The notes under the pieces were generated by a model. The model was not told the origin of the DNA, did not search any database, and was given only the letters and a program-made list of their open reading frames with translations. Made by a program: the position numbers and the translations under genes. Shown here in pieces: positions 17,934 to 48,714 of a stretch of 64,000 bases of DNA. Where the stretch lies: NCBI GenBank assembly GCA_005790605.1, contig SXUI01000016.1, positions 1 to 64,000 of the forward strand, given 5' to 3'. Within the stretch, counting starts at the first letter, position 1. Each line of letters begins with the position of its first letter. Source of the DNA: Planctomycetia bacterium. Its GTDB lineage: Bacteria; Planctomycetota; Phycisphaerae; Phycisphaerales; SM1A02.

Positions 17934-18419
17934 TCAGTCCACTTCGACGAGGAACTCGATTTCAACCGTTGCATGCAGCGGGAGCGCGTTCGTCCCAACC
18001 GCCGCACGGGCATGACGCCCAGCCTCTCCGAAGATCTGCACACAGAGTTCGCTCGCGCCGTTGGCGATCTTGGGCTGCTCACCGAAACCGTCGTCGGACT
18101 GCACGAAGACCCCGAGGCGCACAATCCGCCGTACCCGCTTCAGGTCGCCCCCAAGTTGGTCCGCGATCACTGCGAGCCCATTGAGGAGACACTGTTTGGC
18201 TGCCGCTTGAGCGGCTTCGATGCTCACCGCAGACGGAACCGCCCCTGTGGCAAGGAGTTGCCCATTCAAGAACGGGAGCTGCCCGGAGACAAAAAGCAGG
18301 TTTCCCGAGCGAACGGCAGGCACATATGCCGCGACAGGCTTTGGCGCGGCGGGGAGCGTAAGCCCCAATCGAGCGAGTTGTGCGTGCGGGTCGGCGATGG
18401 TGGCAGCGTCTGAAGTCAT
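17934..18419 (-). CDS. RidA-family (YjgF/UK114) protein
   Basis: A 161-aa protein of the RidA superfamily, whose best-known members deaminate reactive enamine/imine intermediates in the cytoplasm. Family sequence is clear: RSGNLLFVSGQLPFLNGQLL, EAAQAAAKQCLLNGLAVIAD, and a C-terminal VGTNALPLHATVEIEFLVEV. The Arg of the archetypal active site (IRAQVF) is not obvious; this member belongs to the longer subgroup often called endoribonuclease L-PSP-like. I used the ATG at 18419. The gene is monocistronic and convergent with the kinase gene. Confidence 0.9.
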   Translation of the reverse strand: MTSDAATIADPHAQLARLGLTLPAAPKPVAAYVPAVRSGNLLFVSGQLPFLNGQLLATGAVPSAVSIEAAQAAAKQCLLNGLAVIADQLGGDLKRVRRIVRLGVFVQSDDGFGEQPKIANGASELCVQIFGEAGRHARAAVGTNALPLHATVEIEFLVEVD

Positions 18420-18523
18420 GGCGGTTCTCACGCAATTGCGGGAAATCTCGGGTTCTCGAGAAGGCCGGGAGCATATCAAGCGGATCCGAGAAAACGGAAC
18501 TTCTCTGAATCCAATCGATTGTG

Positions 18524-18556
18524 GGAACTTGACAGAACTTCGAAACGCAATACTCT
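18524..18556 (+). promoter_or_regulatory. Strong promoter upstream of RNA candidate/pseudopilin operon
   Basis: TTGACA (18529-18534) and TACTCT (18551-18556) are 16 bases apart, a near-consensus sigma-70 layout with the TANNCT -10 box seen elsewhere in the window. The same site also reads GGAACTT, 20 bases, TACTCT, an arrangement repeated before the sigma factor gene at 39467. No start codon follows at leaderless distance. Confidence 0.65.
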
Positions 18557-18562
18557 CTGTAC

Positions 18563-18642
18563 CTGACGACTGCGGCCTATTCCGAGACTTGTTCTCAACC
18601 CGTTCTGATTGTCGGTTCGACCGACGCTCTTATCCGCCGCAG
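18563..18642 (+). ncRNA. Candidate structured RNA (three-way junction)
   Basis: The segment just downstream of the promoter can close by CTGCGGC (18570-18576) with GCCGCAG (18636-18642), 7 bp. Inside are two hairpins: GAGA/TCTC (18584-18596) and GTCGGT/ACCGAC (18611-18625). This matches no RNA family I recognise; it is not a tRNA, SRP RNA or tmRNA by eye. It could be a small RNA or a leader element of the pseudopilin genes. Compensatory changes in related genomes would be needed to prove the fold. Confidence 0.3.
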
Positions 18643-18860
18643 CCGCCGACATCCTGAATTGCCCTCCCTCAGATGTCTGGTTTGTGTTCACGCTCAGTCG
18701 CCTCACAGCGACGCTCAAAACACGACGAACCAGCTCACATGAGGTCCCCGCTGGGCTCCCGCGCTGCTGGCTGATCCCGATACAACCTGTTGATGGTTTC
18801 GGAATTCGCCGCGTCCCTCGTTCGCTGCACCAAATGGTCGCAGGCGCTTCCTTGCTCTAT

Positions 18861-18877
18861 CGCGTCAATCTGACGCG
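18861..18877. repeat. Perfect 7-bp inverted repeat
   Basis: CGCGTCA and TGACGCG flank a 3-base centre. It may be an operator or a short RNA hairpin in the pseudopilin leader. Confidence 0.5.
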
Positions 18878-19039
18878 TAGCAGGAGCCATGAGCGTAATT
18901 GGCATCGCTGCGTGCGAGCACACACTGGAAGACCGCGATCAGCGTCGGTGGGCAACGCTTTGAGCTTGGCCGCAGTAGATCGCGCGAAGCGCTTCGAGAT
19001 TCGCGCGCGGGCACTGAGCAATCCCTTCACTCATTCATG

Positions 19040-19060
19040 GGTCACTCTTATCGGGTGACC
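19040..19060. repeat. 6-bp inverted repeat upstream of first pseudopilin
   Basis: GGTCAC and GTGACC are separated by 9 bases, about 80 bases before the pseudopilin start. TATCTC follows at 19064-19069 and could be a -10 box. An operator role is speculative. Confidence 0.35.
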
Positions 19061-19140
19061 AACTATCTCGCACCGGTTCGCAGCACGCAGTTTGTATTCG
19101 TGTTTCGAACACAGCCTTAGGAAGTCAGGAGAGTCCGCAT

Positions 19141-20073
19141 ATGCGAACCAACCGTCAGAAGAACGGGTTCACCCTCGTTGAACTCCTCGTCGTGGTGGCG
19201 ATCATCGCCCTTCTCATCAGTCTGCTCCTTCCAGCTCTGAGCAAGGCTCAGCGCAACGCGAAGGCGCTCCAAGACACCTCGAACATCTCGGGTATCCACA
19301 AAGCATTCCTCACTTGGTCCAACCAGGATGACAAGGGCCGCCTCCCACTGCCAGGCCGCATCGCGCGCCTCGCAGTTCCGGGCATCGGCTTCGTCTCGGG
19401 TCAAGGTGAAGAGAATGTCGCGTTGAACAACACCGCGAATCTCTACGCGGCGATGATCCAGAAGGACTTCATCAACACGAAGCTCTGCGTCAGCCCAATC
19501 GATCCCAACCAAGTGGTGACCGAAAAGGCCGACTACAACTTCAACGCAGCGCAGCCAGGCGCGACCACCCCAACCTACTGGGATACCTCTGCGACTGCTG
19601 GCTTTAAGGCCAACATTCACCAGAACACGATTGGCGCGTGCAACACCTCGTACGCCACACTCGCGCTCGTTGGTGATCGCAAGAAGTTCAGCTGGTCCAA
19701 CAAGACTGACGGCAATCGTCCAGTCATGGGCAACCGCGGTACCTACTGCGGCGCGCTCTCCGGACCGAACTATCAGAAGGCATACTGGAACCAAGCCATC
19801 GCGCCAGATGACACTTGGGAAGGCAATGTCTGCTACGGCGACAATCACACGCAGATTGAAAAGTCCATGATTCCAGACACCGTGCAGTATGAGTGCGGTA
19901 GCGTGAATCTCCGCAAGGACAACTGCTACAAGTGGGACTTCGTCGGCAACCTCTGCAAGGGTATGGCTGAGAACGACACTTGGATGTGCATCATCATTGG
20001 TAACCCATCTGCAACATCGGCCACTGAAGCGCCAGAGCGCCTCACCGATGGCACGACGCCAACCTGCAGCTGA
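19141..20073 (+). CDS. Pseudopilin (prepilin-type N-terminal methylation domain), first of a tandem pair
   Basis: A 310-aa type II pseudopilin-like protein. After a short basic leader, the class III signal NGFTLVELLVVVAIIALLIS (residues 8-27) gives cleavage after Gly and Glu at +5 of the mature protein. A long C-terminal domain follows with GNRGTYCGAL and DDTWEGNVCYGDNHTQIEKS. AGGAG lies 11 bases before the ATG. Common codons dominate, which hints at high expression. It is paralogous to the next gene (shared GNRG, W-EG--Y-DNH pattern). It could be a surface or pseudopilus subunit processed by a prepilin peptidase not in this window. Confidence 0.88.
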   Translation: MRTNRQKNGFTLVELLVVVAIIALLISLLLPALSKAQRNAKALQDTSNISGIHKAFLTWSNQDDKGRLPLPGRIARLAVPGIGFVSGQGEENVALNNTANLYAAMIQKDFINTKLCVSPIDPNQVVTEKADYNFNAAQPGATTPTYWDTSATAGFKANIHQNTIGACNTSYATLALVGDRKKFSWSNKTDGNRPVMGNRGTYCGALSGPNYQKAYWNQAIAPDDTWEGNVCYGDNHTQIEKSMIPDTVQYECGSVNLRKDNCYKWDFVGNLCKGMAENDTWMCIIIGNPSATSATEAPERLTDGTTPTCS

Positions 20074-20123: not shown

Positions 20124-20975
20124 ATGAATCAGAACAAAACACCCCGCGCTTCGAAGGGCTTCACGCTCATCGAGCTCCTCGTCGTGATGGCCATCATCGC
20201 GCTTCTCCTCGCCATCCTTCTGCCTGCGCTCAACAAGGCACGCGCCACAACTCGTCGCGTGAAGGATCAGACACAAGTGCAGCAGATCCACAAGGGTTTG
20301 CTCACGCTTGCGATTGACAGCAACGGTCTCTTTCCTACCCCTGGTATGAAGAACCGCTTCGGCACCGTTCCAGGTCGTGGCGCAGAAGATCAAACCAAGA
20401 ATGATCACGCTTCGCTTTACGCCCTGTGCATCATGGAGAACGCATTCGACGCGCAAGTGCTCATCTCTCCTTCAGAGACCAGCACCAATGTGCTCGCGAT
20501 GGCGAACTACAACTTCCAAGCCAAGAATGTCGCGCAGGACGTTTGGTGGGACACCAACCTCAAGGCTGACCTCACCGCTCTCTCCAATGTTTCGTACGGC
20601 ACGCTCCTCCTCGGCGGGACGCGCAAGACCAAGGAGTGGCGCGACACCAAGAATTCGCGTTACGCAGTGCTCGGCAACCGCGGCGTGCAAGAAGGCGACC
20701 TCACCGATGCCGTCTACAACGCATCGCGCACCCTCGGCATTCACGGTAACGACAAGTCCTGGGAAGGCGGCATCGTCTACAACGACAACCACGTCATGTA
20801 CGAAGAAGGCTTCACCCCAATCGATCACCAGAAGGCTCGCGTCAACAATCTTCCTGTCGATGACAACATCTTCAAGAAGGACGAAGGCGACATGGGTGCG
20901 GACTCTTACCTGACCGTGTGCAAGACGGTCACCGGTGGCGGCACCAGCTACACCTTCAACATCACATGGGACTAG
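20124..20975 (+). CDS. Pseudopilin, second of the tandem pair
   Basis: A 283-aa paralogue of the preceding gene. The prepilin signal KGFTLIELLVVMAIIALLLA is at residues 13-32, with Glu at mature position 5. Further shared features are ATTRRVKDQTQVQQIHKGLL after the helix, YAVLGNRGVQEGDLTDAVYN and KSWEGGIVYNDNHVMYEEGF. The pair is separated by 50 bases and ends at a very strong terminator, so they form a two-gene unit. The variable C-terminal domain is not one I recognise by name. The pair is far from the gsp cluster and may build a different structure. Confidence 0.88.
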   Translation: MNQNKTPRASKGFTLIELLVVMAIIALLLAILLPALNKARATTRRVKDQTQVQQIHKGLLTLAIDSNGLFPTPGMKNRFGTVPGRGAEDQTKNDHASLYALCIMENAFDAQVLISPSETSTNVLAMANYNFQAKNVAQDVWWDTNLKADLTALSNVSYGTLLLGGTRKTKEWRDTKNSRYAVLGNRGVQEGDLTDAVYNASRTLGIHGNDKSWEGGIVYNDNHVMYEEGFTPIDHQKARVNNLPVDDNIFKKDEGDMGADSYLTVCKTVTGGGTSYTFNITWD

Positions 20976-21055: not shown

Positions 21056-21092
21056 ACCAGGGCGGCGCTTGCGCCGCCCTGGTGTTTTTTTG
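21056..21092 (+). terminator. Strong rho-independent terminator of the pseudopilin pair
   Basis: A 13-bp perfect stem (ACCAGGGCGGCGC with its complement, 2-base loop) is followed by G and eight T residues. Confidence 0.95.
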
Positions 21093-46119: not shown

Positions 46120-46539
46120 ATGCGCAAGCCCGCTCGCCCAACCACTCACCGCCGCGCTCGCCGTGGTTTCAGCCTTCTCGAAGTCATCGTCGCCGTGACG
46201 ATCATCGCGCTCTTCGCAGCCATCATCGGCCCGAATCTGTGGGCACGACTCGGCTACGCGAAGAAGGCAAAGGCAATCACGGAAACGAACGCCCTTGCCC
46301 AGCAAGTGCGCCTGTACATGACGGAAAAGAATGTCTCGGGTCTCACGCAGGACTTTGAACTTGAAATGCTTGTCCCCGACTACCTCGAGAGCGTCGACGG
46401 TCTCACGGATCCCTGGGGTCATCTCTATGTGATTCGAATGCCCGGCGACGGTCGCGACTTTGACATCATGAGCTTCGGTGAAGATGGCGTGGAAGGCGGC
46501 GAAGACGCCAACGCGGACATTGTCCACGGAAAGAAGTAA
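46120..46539 (+). CDS. gspG: Major pseudopilin GspG
   Basis: Main subunit of the periplasmic pseudopilus, 139 aa. The prepilin signal RGFSLLEVIVAVTIIALFAA (residues 15-34) has Glu at mature position 5. The C-terminal block is diagnostic for GspG: DPWGHLYVIRMPG and FDIMSFGEDGVEGGEDANAD, which includes the calcium-binding loop. It lies between gspF and gspH in the usual order. Confidence 0.96.
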   Translation: MRKPARPTTHRRARRGFSLLEVIVAVTIIALFAAIIGPNLWARLGYAKKAKAITETNALAQQVRLYMTEKNVSGLTQDFELEMLVPDYLESVDGLTDPWGHLYVIRMPGDGRDFDIMSFGEDGVEGGEDANADIVHGKK

Positions 46540-46554
46540 TCCTTGCAACGACGG

Positions 46555-47139
46555 ATGTCTCCTATCACAAGCAACCGAAGCCGCGCAGGAGCCATGCGCG
46601 GCTTCTCGCTGCTTGAAGTGATGGTGGTCGCCGCAATTCTCGCGCTCCTTGCGGCAATGATCATTCCGCGCATGGCTTCAGTTCATCGACAACGGGATGA
46701 AACCGGCATCGACTCCATCGCTGATCTCCTTCGCATGTTCGCGTTTCGCAATGGATCGATGACGCAAGAAATCGCACTCTGGCACGATGCCGAGTCAGGC
46801 GTCGTTTCACTTTGGATCAAGGACATTGACCCCTCGAATCCTGAAGGCGCGCGCATCTGGCAAGAGGATCGGTTGAGCATGCCCGTGAACCTTCCTGAAG
46901 GCATGGAGATCCAAGATGCACTCGCGGATGGCGCGCCCGTCTCACAAAATCCTTGGACCATCGCGACGCGCCCAGATGGCTCGCGGCCACGCATCGAACT
47001 TCGCGTCGTCGGTGAGACGAAACAGACGACGATTGTTCTTGAGCCTTGGGCGACAGGCCCGATTCGAATGGACCTCGGCGAAGCCACTCGGACGAGCATG
47101 GACCTCGATCGCGAAGGTCGGGGGTTCGAGAGATGGTGA
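46555..47139 (+). CDS. gspH: Minor pseudopilin GspH-like
   Basis: A 194-aa pseudopilin with the signal MRGFSLLEVMVVAAILALLA (about residues 13-32; Glu at mature position 5). The C-terminal domain is beta-rich (EIALWHDAESGVVSLWIKDI). Position between gspG and gspI supports GspH. The ATG at 46555 is used; the frame is open to a TTG at 46543, four bases past the gspG stop. The 3' end overlaps gspI by 7 bases. Confidence 0.88.
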   Translation: MSPITSNRSRAGAMRGFSLLEVMVVAAILALLAAMIIPRMASVHRQRDETGIDSIADLLRMFAFRNGSMTQEIALWHDAESGVVSLWIKDIDPSNPEGARIWQEDRLSMPVNLPEGMEIQDALADGAPVSQNPWTIATRPDGSRPRIELRVVGETKQTTIVLEPWATGPIRMDLGEATRTSMDLDREGRGFERW

Positions 47140-47630
47140 ACGCTTACAAACAAGACCGCCCCACGACGGCGCGATCTCGCAGGGGATTCGCCCTCATCGA
47201 CGCGGTCATCGCAGGCGTCATTCTCGCCATCGGCCTCTCCGCGATCCTCTCGATTGCGGGGCGCGCCCTTACGATGGAACAGAAGGGCGAGATAGAGATT
47301 CGTGCTGCAAGTGCGCTTGACGAGCTACTTTCTTCGGTTGTGACCGAGGGAGTAGAGGTTTTTTCCGAGATTCAGCCCACAAGCGGTCGTTTTGAGGCAG
47401 ACTCACCGTATGCCGACTTTGAGTTCGACATCTTGATCGAGGCTGGCGATGTGGGTGTCCCCGCACGCGTCGTCGCAACGGTCATGCATGACTCTGGCAA
47501 GAAGTACACGATCGAAACCCATGTCGCGTTGAAACGCGGCGAGGAGCCCGATCCCGTTCGCTATCCGACAAGCCCGATTGACAGGGAAGCTCGCTATGAA
47601 GAAGAACGCGCGAAACTCGAAGGCAACTAA
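47133..47630 (+). CDS. gspI: Minor pseudopilin GspI-like with Asp at position 5
   Basis: A 165-aa minor pseudopilin. The signal is RRGFALIDAVIAGVILAIGL (about residues 16-35). Mature position 5, normally Glu, is Asp. In other systems Glu5 is needed for ordered assembly, so this is a notable, conservative change. The rest shows EIEIRAASALDELLSSVVTE and a beta-rich end, consistent with the tip-complex subunit GspI, as does its position. The start overlaps gspH by 7 bases and the end overlaps gspJ by 35 bases. Confidence 0.85.
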   Translation: MVNAYKQDRPTTARSRRGFALIDAVIAGVILAIGLSAILSIAGRALTMEQKGEIEIRAASALDELLSSVVTEGVEVFSEIQPTSGRFEADSPYADFEFDILIEAGDVGVPARVVATVMHDSGKKYTIETHVALKRGEEPDPVRYPTSPIDREARYEEERAKLEGN

Positions 47631-48714
47631 CCCAGCATCGACGCGGCGCGCTGTCGTGCACGATCGCCAACGGCGTGGCTTCACCGTCATCGAACTCGTT
47701 GTCGCGACGATGATCACCGCGCTTGTGGTTGGCACGATCACGCTCAGCACTTCTCAACTCTCGCGCGGTCGAAGCATCACCAAACTTCGACTTGAGGCAA
47801 CCACGCGCGCGCAGGGCGCACTTGATGCAGTGCGACGAGACATCGTGGCCACGATTCGCGACGAAGATCTCTTCCGCTCGCGCGTCGTGATTTACGACGG
47901 CGAAGCATTTAGCCCCTACGGCGTTGTCGATCGCGACGAACTTGTGATCTTCAACAATCGCATGCGACCCATCAAGGGAGATCGCTACAGCGGCGAGGGC
48001 GGCGAGTATGAGACGCAGTACCGCGTTGAAGACGACTACGCCGGCAGCGCACTTTGGCAGCGACGCGACGCCGTGCCGGACGACAACCCAGAAGGCGGCG
48101 GAACGGTCACTCCCCTTGTCGATGGCATCATTGGTCTCAAGGTTGAAGCCTACGACGGCGAGTCTTGGTACCCCGATTGGGACAGCGACTTCGATGGACT
48201 TCCCTGGGCGCTCCGGATTACCGTCGCGGCCACTGGCGATCCAGCCGGAAGTGAACCCTCGGACGCGCAGAAGTCGACCATTGTTCTGCGCACCCAGATT
48301 CCGATCGACCGCATCGTGCCCCCACTCGATGAGGAAGCCGAAGCCGAATCGAAGGACGAGGCTGCGGCTGAAGGTGAGGCCGACGGTGCAGGCGCGAATG
48401 GCGAAGGCGCAATCGACCCAGCAACTGGAAAACCGATCGACGGCGGCAGTTCCGGCGGTGCGGGCGGTGCGGGCGGTGGAGGCGACGGCTCTGGCGCCCT
48501 GCCAGGTGGCGGGAATGGACCTGTAGGCGGCAATGGCGGCGGTGACTTTGGGCAGCCTGGTGGCGGCGGTCCTGGGATGGGTACCGGCGGCGGCGCGACG
48601 GTCCGGCAACCTGGAAGACCAGCCTTCAACAGCGGCTCTGGCCGGGGCAGAGGCGCGACGATTGGTCGTCCTGGTGGGCCTGGAAGCGGCGTCCGTGGAA
48701 ACCGCGGAGGCTAG
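47596..48714 (+). CDS. gspJ: Minor pseudopilin GspJ-like with a long Gly-rich tail
   Basis: A 372-aa pseudopilin, longer than the usual 200-230 aa. The signal RRGFTVIELVVATMITALVV (about residues 26-45) has Glu at mature position 5. The GspJ-like domain (about 60-240) includes QGALDAVRRDIVATIRDEDL. After residue 250 the protein becomes acidic and then extremely Gly-rich with Pro and Arg, a low-complexity tail of over 100 residues. The ATG at 47596 has GGGAAG 7 bases upstream. A terminator-like hairpin follows before gspK. Confidence 0.87.
   Translation: MKKNARNSKATNPASTRRAVVHDRQRRGFTVIELVVATMITALVVGTITLSTSQLSRGRSITKLRLEATTRAQGALDAVRRDIVATIRDEDLFRSRVVIYDGEAFSPYGVVDRDELVIFNNRMRPIKGDRYSGEGGEYETQYRVEDDYAGSALWQRRDAVPDDNPEGGGTVTPLVDGIIGLKVEAYDGESWYPDWDSDFDGLPWALRITVAATGDPAGSEPSDAQKSTIVLRTQIPIDRIVPPLDEEAEAESKDEAAAEGEADGAGANGEGAIDPATGKPIDGGSSGGAGGAGGGGDGSGALPGGGNGPVGGNGGGDFGQPGGGGPGMGTGGGATVRQPGRPAFNSGSGRGRGATIGRPGGPGSGVRGNRGG

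Follow-up and report, generated by a model that had tools for sequence, protein, structure and literature searches.

A new predicted structured RNA upstream of pseudopilin genes in planctomycetes of the order Phycisphaerales

Results

Organization of the pseudopilin locus

We analysed a 64,000-nucleotide stretch of DNA (hereafter the window) from a Planctomycetia bacterium (GenBank assembly GCA_005790605.1, contig SXUI01000016.1, positions 1 to 64,000), which belongs to a 3.03-Mb genome in 80 contigs. On the forward strand, two consecutive genes encode pseudopilins of 310 aa (19141-20073) and 283 aa (20124-20975). Both proteins match the prepilin N-methylation motif (Pfam N_methyl PF07963; TIGR02532). 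They score only 35.7 and 36.0 bits against the type II secretion major pseudopilin GspG (TIGR01710), below its curated cut-off of 88.85 bits, and only the prepilin domain TIGR02532 passes its cut-off among the listed families. The first gene is preceded by a ribosome-binding-site-like AGGAGAG (19127-19133), and a terminator-like hairpin at 21056-21090, with a 12-pair stem followed by a run of 7 T (terminator-like site 21056-21083), probably marks the end of the transcript. Three further prepilin-like motifs lie on the forward strand at 46164-47700, probably a type II secretion or pilus minor-pseudopilin cluster. No tRNA or tmRNA was found in the window.

A first-pass annotation had proposed that a near-consensus promoter upstream of this pair drives a structured RNA made of a 7-bp closing stem enclosing two hairpins and followed by another stem-loop, which may be a small RNA or a long regulatory leader. 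We confirmed the promoter-like sequence, which comprises GGAACTTGACA (18524-18534) with the TTGACA box at 18529-18534, 16 bases, and TACTCT at 18551-18556, the next gene starting 585 bases after this -10 box. The closing stem pairs CTGCGGC (18570-18576) with GCCGCAG (18636-18642), and the two enclosed hairpins are formed by 18584-18587 with 18593-18596 and by 18610-18616 with 18620-18626. Taken alone, these features are only mildly better than chance. Indeed, the folding z-scores are -1.64, -2.44 and -1.88 for three different cuts, and a generic promoter scan did not list the promoter, since TACTCT matches TATAAT at 3 of 6 positions and the scan asks for 4. Over 60 members of the family described below the mean z is -1.71, while the neighbouring spacer also gives -1.03.

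The promoter and the RNA are conserved in the genus

We therefore turned to sequence comparison. Three other genomes of the genus carry the pilin orthologue, at 86, 88 and 94% identity, and we aligned the upstream regions of the four members. We observed that the promoter plus RNA region (18509-18664) is conserved while the sequence just downstream is not: 32 of 48 positions are identical in 18509-18556 and 76 of 99 in 18566-18664, against 26 of 86 before (18420-18505), 4 of 56 in 18665-18720 and 4 of 130 in 18721-18850. The spacer as a whole (18670-19030) is not conserved, with 4 of 56, 4 of 130, 13 of 150 and 2 of 30 identical positions in successive stretches. The additional stem-loop placed near 18689 by the first-pass annotation (by our reading about 18697-18712) lies in this diverged stretch and is not conserved.

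A second conserved island precedes the pilin start, with 19 of 30 identical positions in 19031-19060, 14 of 45 in 19061-19105 and 23 of 35 in 19106-19140. It contains a hairpin at 19040-19060, about 80-100 nt before the pilin start, which is aligned in all four genomes and followed by a run of T in two of four, as a transcription attenuator would have. This role is tentative. The hairpin folds in this genome (-12.9 kcal/mol, z -2.94) and also in two of the other three genus members, but with weak z values (-1.50 and -0.76).

Covariance models reveal a wider RNA family

To determine whether the RNA exists outside the genus, we built a covariance model, R1, from the four genus sequences only, and ran it on 181 genomes of the family. 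With this model, 21 genomes matched at E up to 0.1, 17 of them outside the genus. Of these 17, 14 stand before a pseudopilin on the same strand (one of them, L053, with the AFTLVEL form of the motif; L numbers designate individual loci), L051 meets a contig end 346 nt on, and L055 and L056 are weak and look like coding DNA by eye. Model R2, built from 19 members, matched 75 of 181 genomes of the family at E up to 0.1 and 71 of 400 genomes sampled from the order at E up to 0.05. Model R3, built from 66 members, matched 116 of the 400 at E up to 0.01, of which 111 belong to the window's own family (f1), 4 to family f4 (genus g37) and 1 to family f2, while 20 genomes of f1 gave no match in this search. 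In a phylum-wide draw R3 matched only 5 of 372 genomes, all in f1 or f4 and in the same order. These E-values are rough because the calibration was short, and the large searches used stricter filters. In the genome of the window a single match was obtained at E up to 1, and the models gave no match near the prepilin-like motifs at 46164-47700. A pattern scan of a collection of genome contigs gave 16 stretches, 14 from planctomycete-type or unnamed environmental genomes and two from actinobacteria, taken as chance.

The domain matched by the models spans 18560-18669, and the inferred transcript start is expected at about 18562-18565. It comprises the closing stem P1 (18564-18576 with 18636-18648), the hairpin P2 (18584-18596, GAGA-CTTGT-TCTC), a joining strand (18597-18609) with, by our reading, the family consensus CNGYCCUCAUU, the hairpin P3 (18610-18626, TGTCGGT-TCG-ACCGACG) and a conserved tail, CCGACATCCTGA (18646-18657), in which GACA is identical in 64 of 64 aligned members.

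To test the structure, we measured covariation on a MAFFT alignment of 19 sequences that was not fitted to the structure. In this alignment 95.0% of cells pair (shuffles 89.9%), 9 of 20 pairs change on both sides (shuffles 2.8), 19 cells do so (4.5) and the covariation score is 0.218 (0.132); none of 500 shuffles reached any of these values. A fifth measure, further pair types, is not beyond shuffles (139 of 500). Slid controls reach at most 65.1%, 6 pairs and 0.130, although the structure was derived from this same alignment, which favours it in the slid comparison. On an alignment of 66 members, fitted to the model and so leaning towards it, 19 of 20 pairs are changed on both sides. P1 and P3 are well supported, with, in the alignment of 19 sequences, 4 of 6 pairs of P3 changed on both sides and 99.1% of its cells paired, whereas P2, which is variable and longer in genus g59, is the least supported stem (1 of 4 pairs, 86.8% of cells paired). 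An alternative pairing of the P3 5' strand with CCGACA of the tail is possible by eye in the window's genus and in g59, but P3 changes in other genera while the tail does not, and it was not retained; neither was a kink-turn at the base of P1, considered by eye, for want of an outer stem.

The RNA lies upstream of pseudopilin genes on the same strand

We then examined the genes downstream of the RNA. In one set of 82 hits, 74 have a prepilin motif 190-1029 nt (median 312) downstream on the same strand, and 64 of these 74 have a second one about 1 kb further. In another set, 54 of 59 loci of R3 matches have one within 1,100 nt, and 8 of these 59 repeat places of the first set. Altogether, 120 of 133 distinct hits have a pseudopilin downstream, whereas a random point and strand of the window has a prepilin motif within 1,100 nt downstream in 3.7%. 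The 13 others are three contig ends (L051, L158, L179), four copies before beta-helix genes (L092, L165, L169, L172) and six weak hits taken as chance (L123, L117, L125, L126, L127 and a second L106 hit), of which L125 and the L106 hit have under 900 nt of sequence after them. Seven further weak hits (L238-L244) show no comparable arrangement by eye. About a dozen loci of the first set were initially fetched because of their pilin and R3 was trained on many of the others; the R1 result, 14 of 17, is the least biased. In addition, in 26 loci chosen by pilin protein alone, R2 run without filters gave 19 matches at E up to 0.02, of which 18 lie upstream of the pilin on its strand and one (a second L017 match) inside the gene.

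Second copies of the RNA were found in four genomes that also have the pilin copy, G006 (L092:3028-3134), G098 (L169:374-485), G099 (L165:1511-1620) and G102 (L172:1837-1947). These copies lie about 420, 515, 95 and 95 nt, respectively, before genes on the same strand whose proteins match Pfam Beta_helix and/or Chlam_PMP, two of them also Dockerin_1; start codons and signal-like N-termini were judged by eye. A weaker third copy in G102 (L237:460-574, E 0.003) lies about 100 nt before a gene with beta-propeller (SBBP) and NHL matches. These genes are possible further members of a regulon. Genome G123 has two diverged copies (L089:3876-4014 and L089:5660-5783), each about 400 nt before a pseudopilin, and the leader seems to be duplicated with its gene.

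Promoter-like sequences are enriched before the RNA

To investigate where transcription could start, we looked for TTGACA/TATAAT-like pairs in 71 loci, after removal of 11 of the 82 hits (the six weak hits, L051, L092, L012, which is only 51 nt long, and the near-duplicates L065 and L068). In the 100 nt before the RNA, the best pair scores 9 of 12 or more in 48 loci (shuffles about 5%) and 8 or more in 64 (shuffles 20%). In the spacer from the RNA to the nearest pilin ATG, the corresponding numbers are 2 of 71 (shuffles 7%) and 15 of 71 (shuffles 35%), and the outcome was the same when the spacer ended at the furthest in-frame ATG. The only enriched sigma-70-like promoter is thus before the RNA, although another promoter type near the pilin start is not excluded. 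TTGAC lies within 110 nt upstream in 68 of 75 hits and GGAACTTGAC, which in the window overlaps the -35 box (18524-18534), in 26 of 75. GGAAC stays in two beta-helix copies that lack TTGAC (L165 and L169), and GGAACTTGAC may be an activator site or an ECF-type -35 element.

Terminator-like sites are few in the spacers (8 of 71, 4% expected), and a C-over-G bias of the spacer (49 of 70, against 27 of 71 upstream stretches) is mild. We also observed an exact 10-base complement between the joining strand (18597-18606) and the start of the first pilin gene (19160-19169), but it is not kept whole in G001 and G002, and pairing between the RNA and the pilin mRNA start is not better in own than in swapped pairs (fraction of permutations as low 0.08). 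Such base pairing is not supported, although the test is weak because whole RNAs were used.

Discussion

Conservation, covariation, the absence of a conserved reading frame and the absence of an Rfam match strongly support a new structured RNA. Of the two options raised by the first-pass annotation, the leader is favoured, given the constant position and orientation before the pilin pair, the promoter-like sequence before the RNA with none enriched after it, and the extra copies before other genes for secreted-type proteins. In our best reading, which we consider probable in the absence of transcript data, the RNA represents a new family of cis-acting 5' leader: a promoter at 18529-18556 would start a transcript beginning with a folded domain of about 110 nt and running through a long unconserved spacer into the two pseudopilin genes, probably to end near 21056-21090. 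That the RNA and the pilins share one transcript is inferred, as is the idea that the domain senses something, a small molecule or a protein, and so sets pseudopilin expression by transcription attenuation, processing or mRNA stability. The length of the spacer is unusual for a riboswitch with its switch close by, and terminator-like sites are not general in the spacers.

A separate small-RNA gene, ending soon after 18669 and acting in trans by base pairing on pilin or other mRNAs, is less likely. It would fit with the promoter-like sequence of its own, the unpaired conserved strands, the 10-base complement to the first pilin gene and the immediate divergence after the RNA. However, no promoter for the pilins is enriched after the RNA among the sigma-70-like sequences tested, no general terminator was found, and pairing with the pilin mRNA start is not better in own than in swapped pairs, although these two tests are inconclusive. 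Moreover, the copies before beta-helix genes move with their genes, which a leader would need to do but a trans-acting RNA would not. It is equally unlikely, though possible, that the fold is a mere 5' stabiliser that protects a long pilin mRNA from decay and senses nothing. P1 indeed begins at the expected transcript start, and pilin mRNAs may often be abundant, but the invariant unpaired GACA and the conserved joining strand are more than a protective stem needs. Finally, despite the high identity within the genus, a conserved protein-coding stretch or a pure DNA (operator) element is very improbable. One-base indels occur inside the conserved block, the distance between the joining strand and the tail is spread evenly mod 3 (23, 22 and 19 of 64), so that no protein frame is kept, and P1 and P3 show compensatory pair changes.

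We found no described RNA of this kind in Rfam 15 or in a literature search that did not cover most subscription papers. No Rfam model matched at gathering score in the window or in 16 member loci, and a relaxed search of 18400-19200 gave only one unrelated hit at E 6.2. This holds for the c-di-GMP riboswitches, which are known before the type IV pilin genes of C. difficile (cited in PMC6916266) and likewise are structured leader RNAs. The PilR antisense RNA of Synechocystis (PMC5924778) is also linked to prepilin genes, but it is encoded on the opposite strand of pilA11, whereas the RNA described here is upstream and on the same strand. The Rhodopirellula-1 motif (PMC2864571), listed for Proteobacteria and Planctomycetes without an Rfam number in the table passage, is another candidate structured RNA reported partly from Planctomycetes, with which no direct comparison could be made.

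The RNA occurs in at least 111 of the 181 genomes examined for its family. Since the same element stands, in a few relatives, before genes for beta-helix or beta-propeller proteins of secreted type, it may tie pilus or secretion parts to surface proteins. A freshwater Phycisphaerae clade (CL500-3, Nemodlikiaceae) is described as abundant, particle-colonising and carrying cohesin/dockerin proteins (PMC6461901, which names plancto70 among lake MAGs without saying outright that it belongs to that clade), and the genus of the window likely belongs to this clade, although this was not shown. It is tempting, but only tentative, to propose a new sensor RNA of Phycisphaerales, either a riboswitch or a protein-responsive leader, that couples one cellular signal to the making of a pseudopilus and of secreted beta-helix, dockerin-bearing or beta-propeller proteins, and so to attachment to and use of particles; the link to that way of life is our inference. 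The RNA gives a concrete handle on how pseudopilins are controlled in planctomycetes and, if it is a riboswitch, its ligand would name the signal directly.
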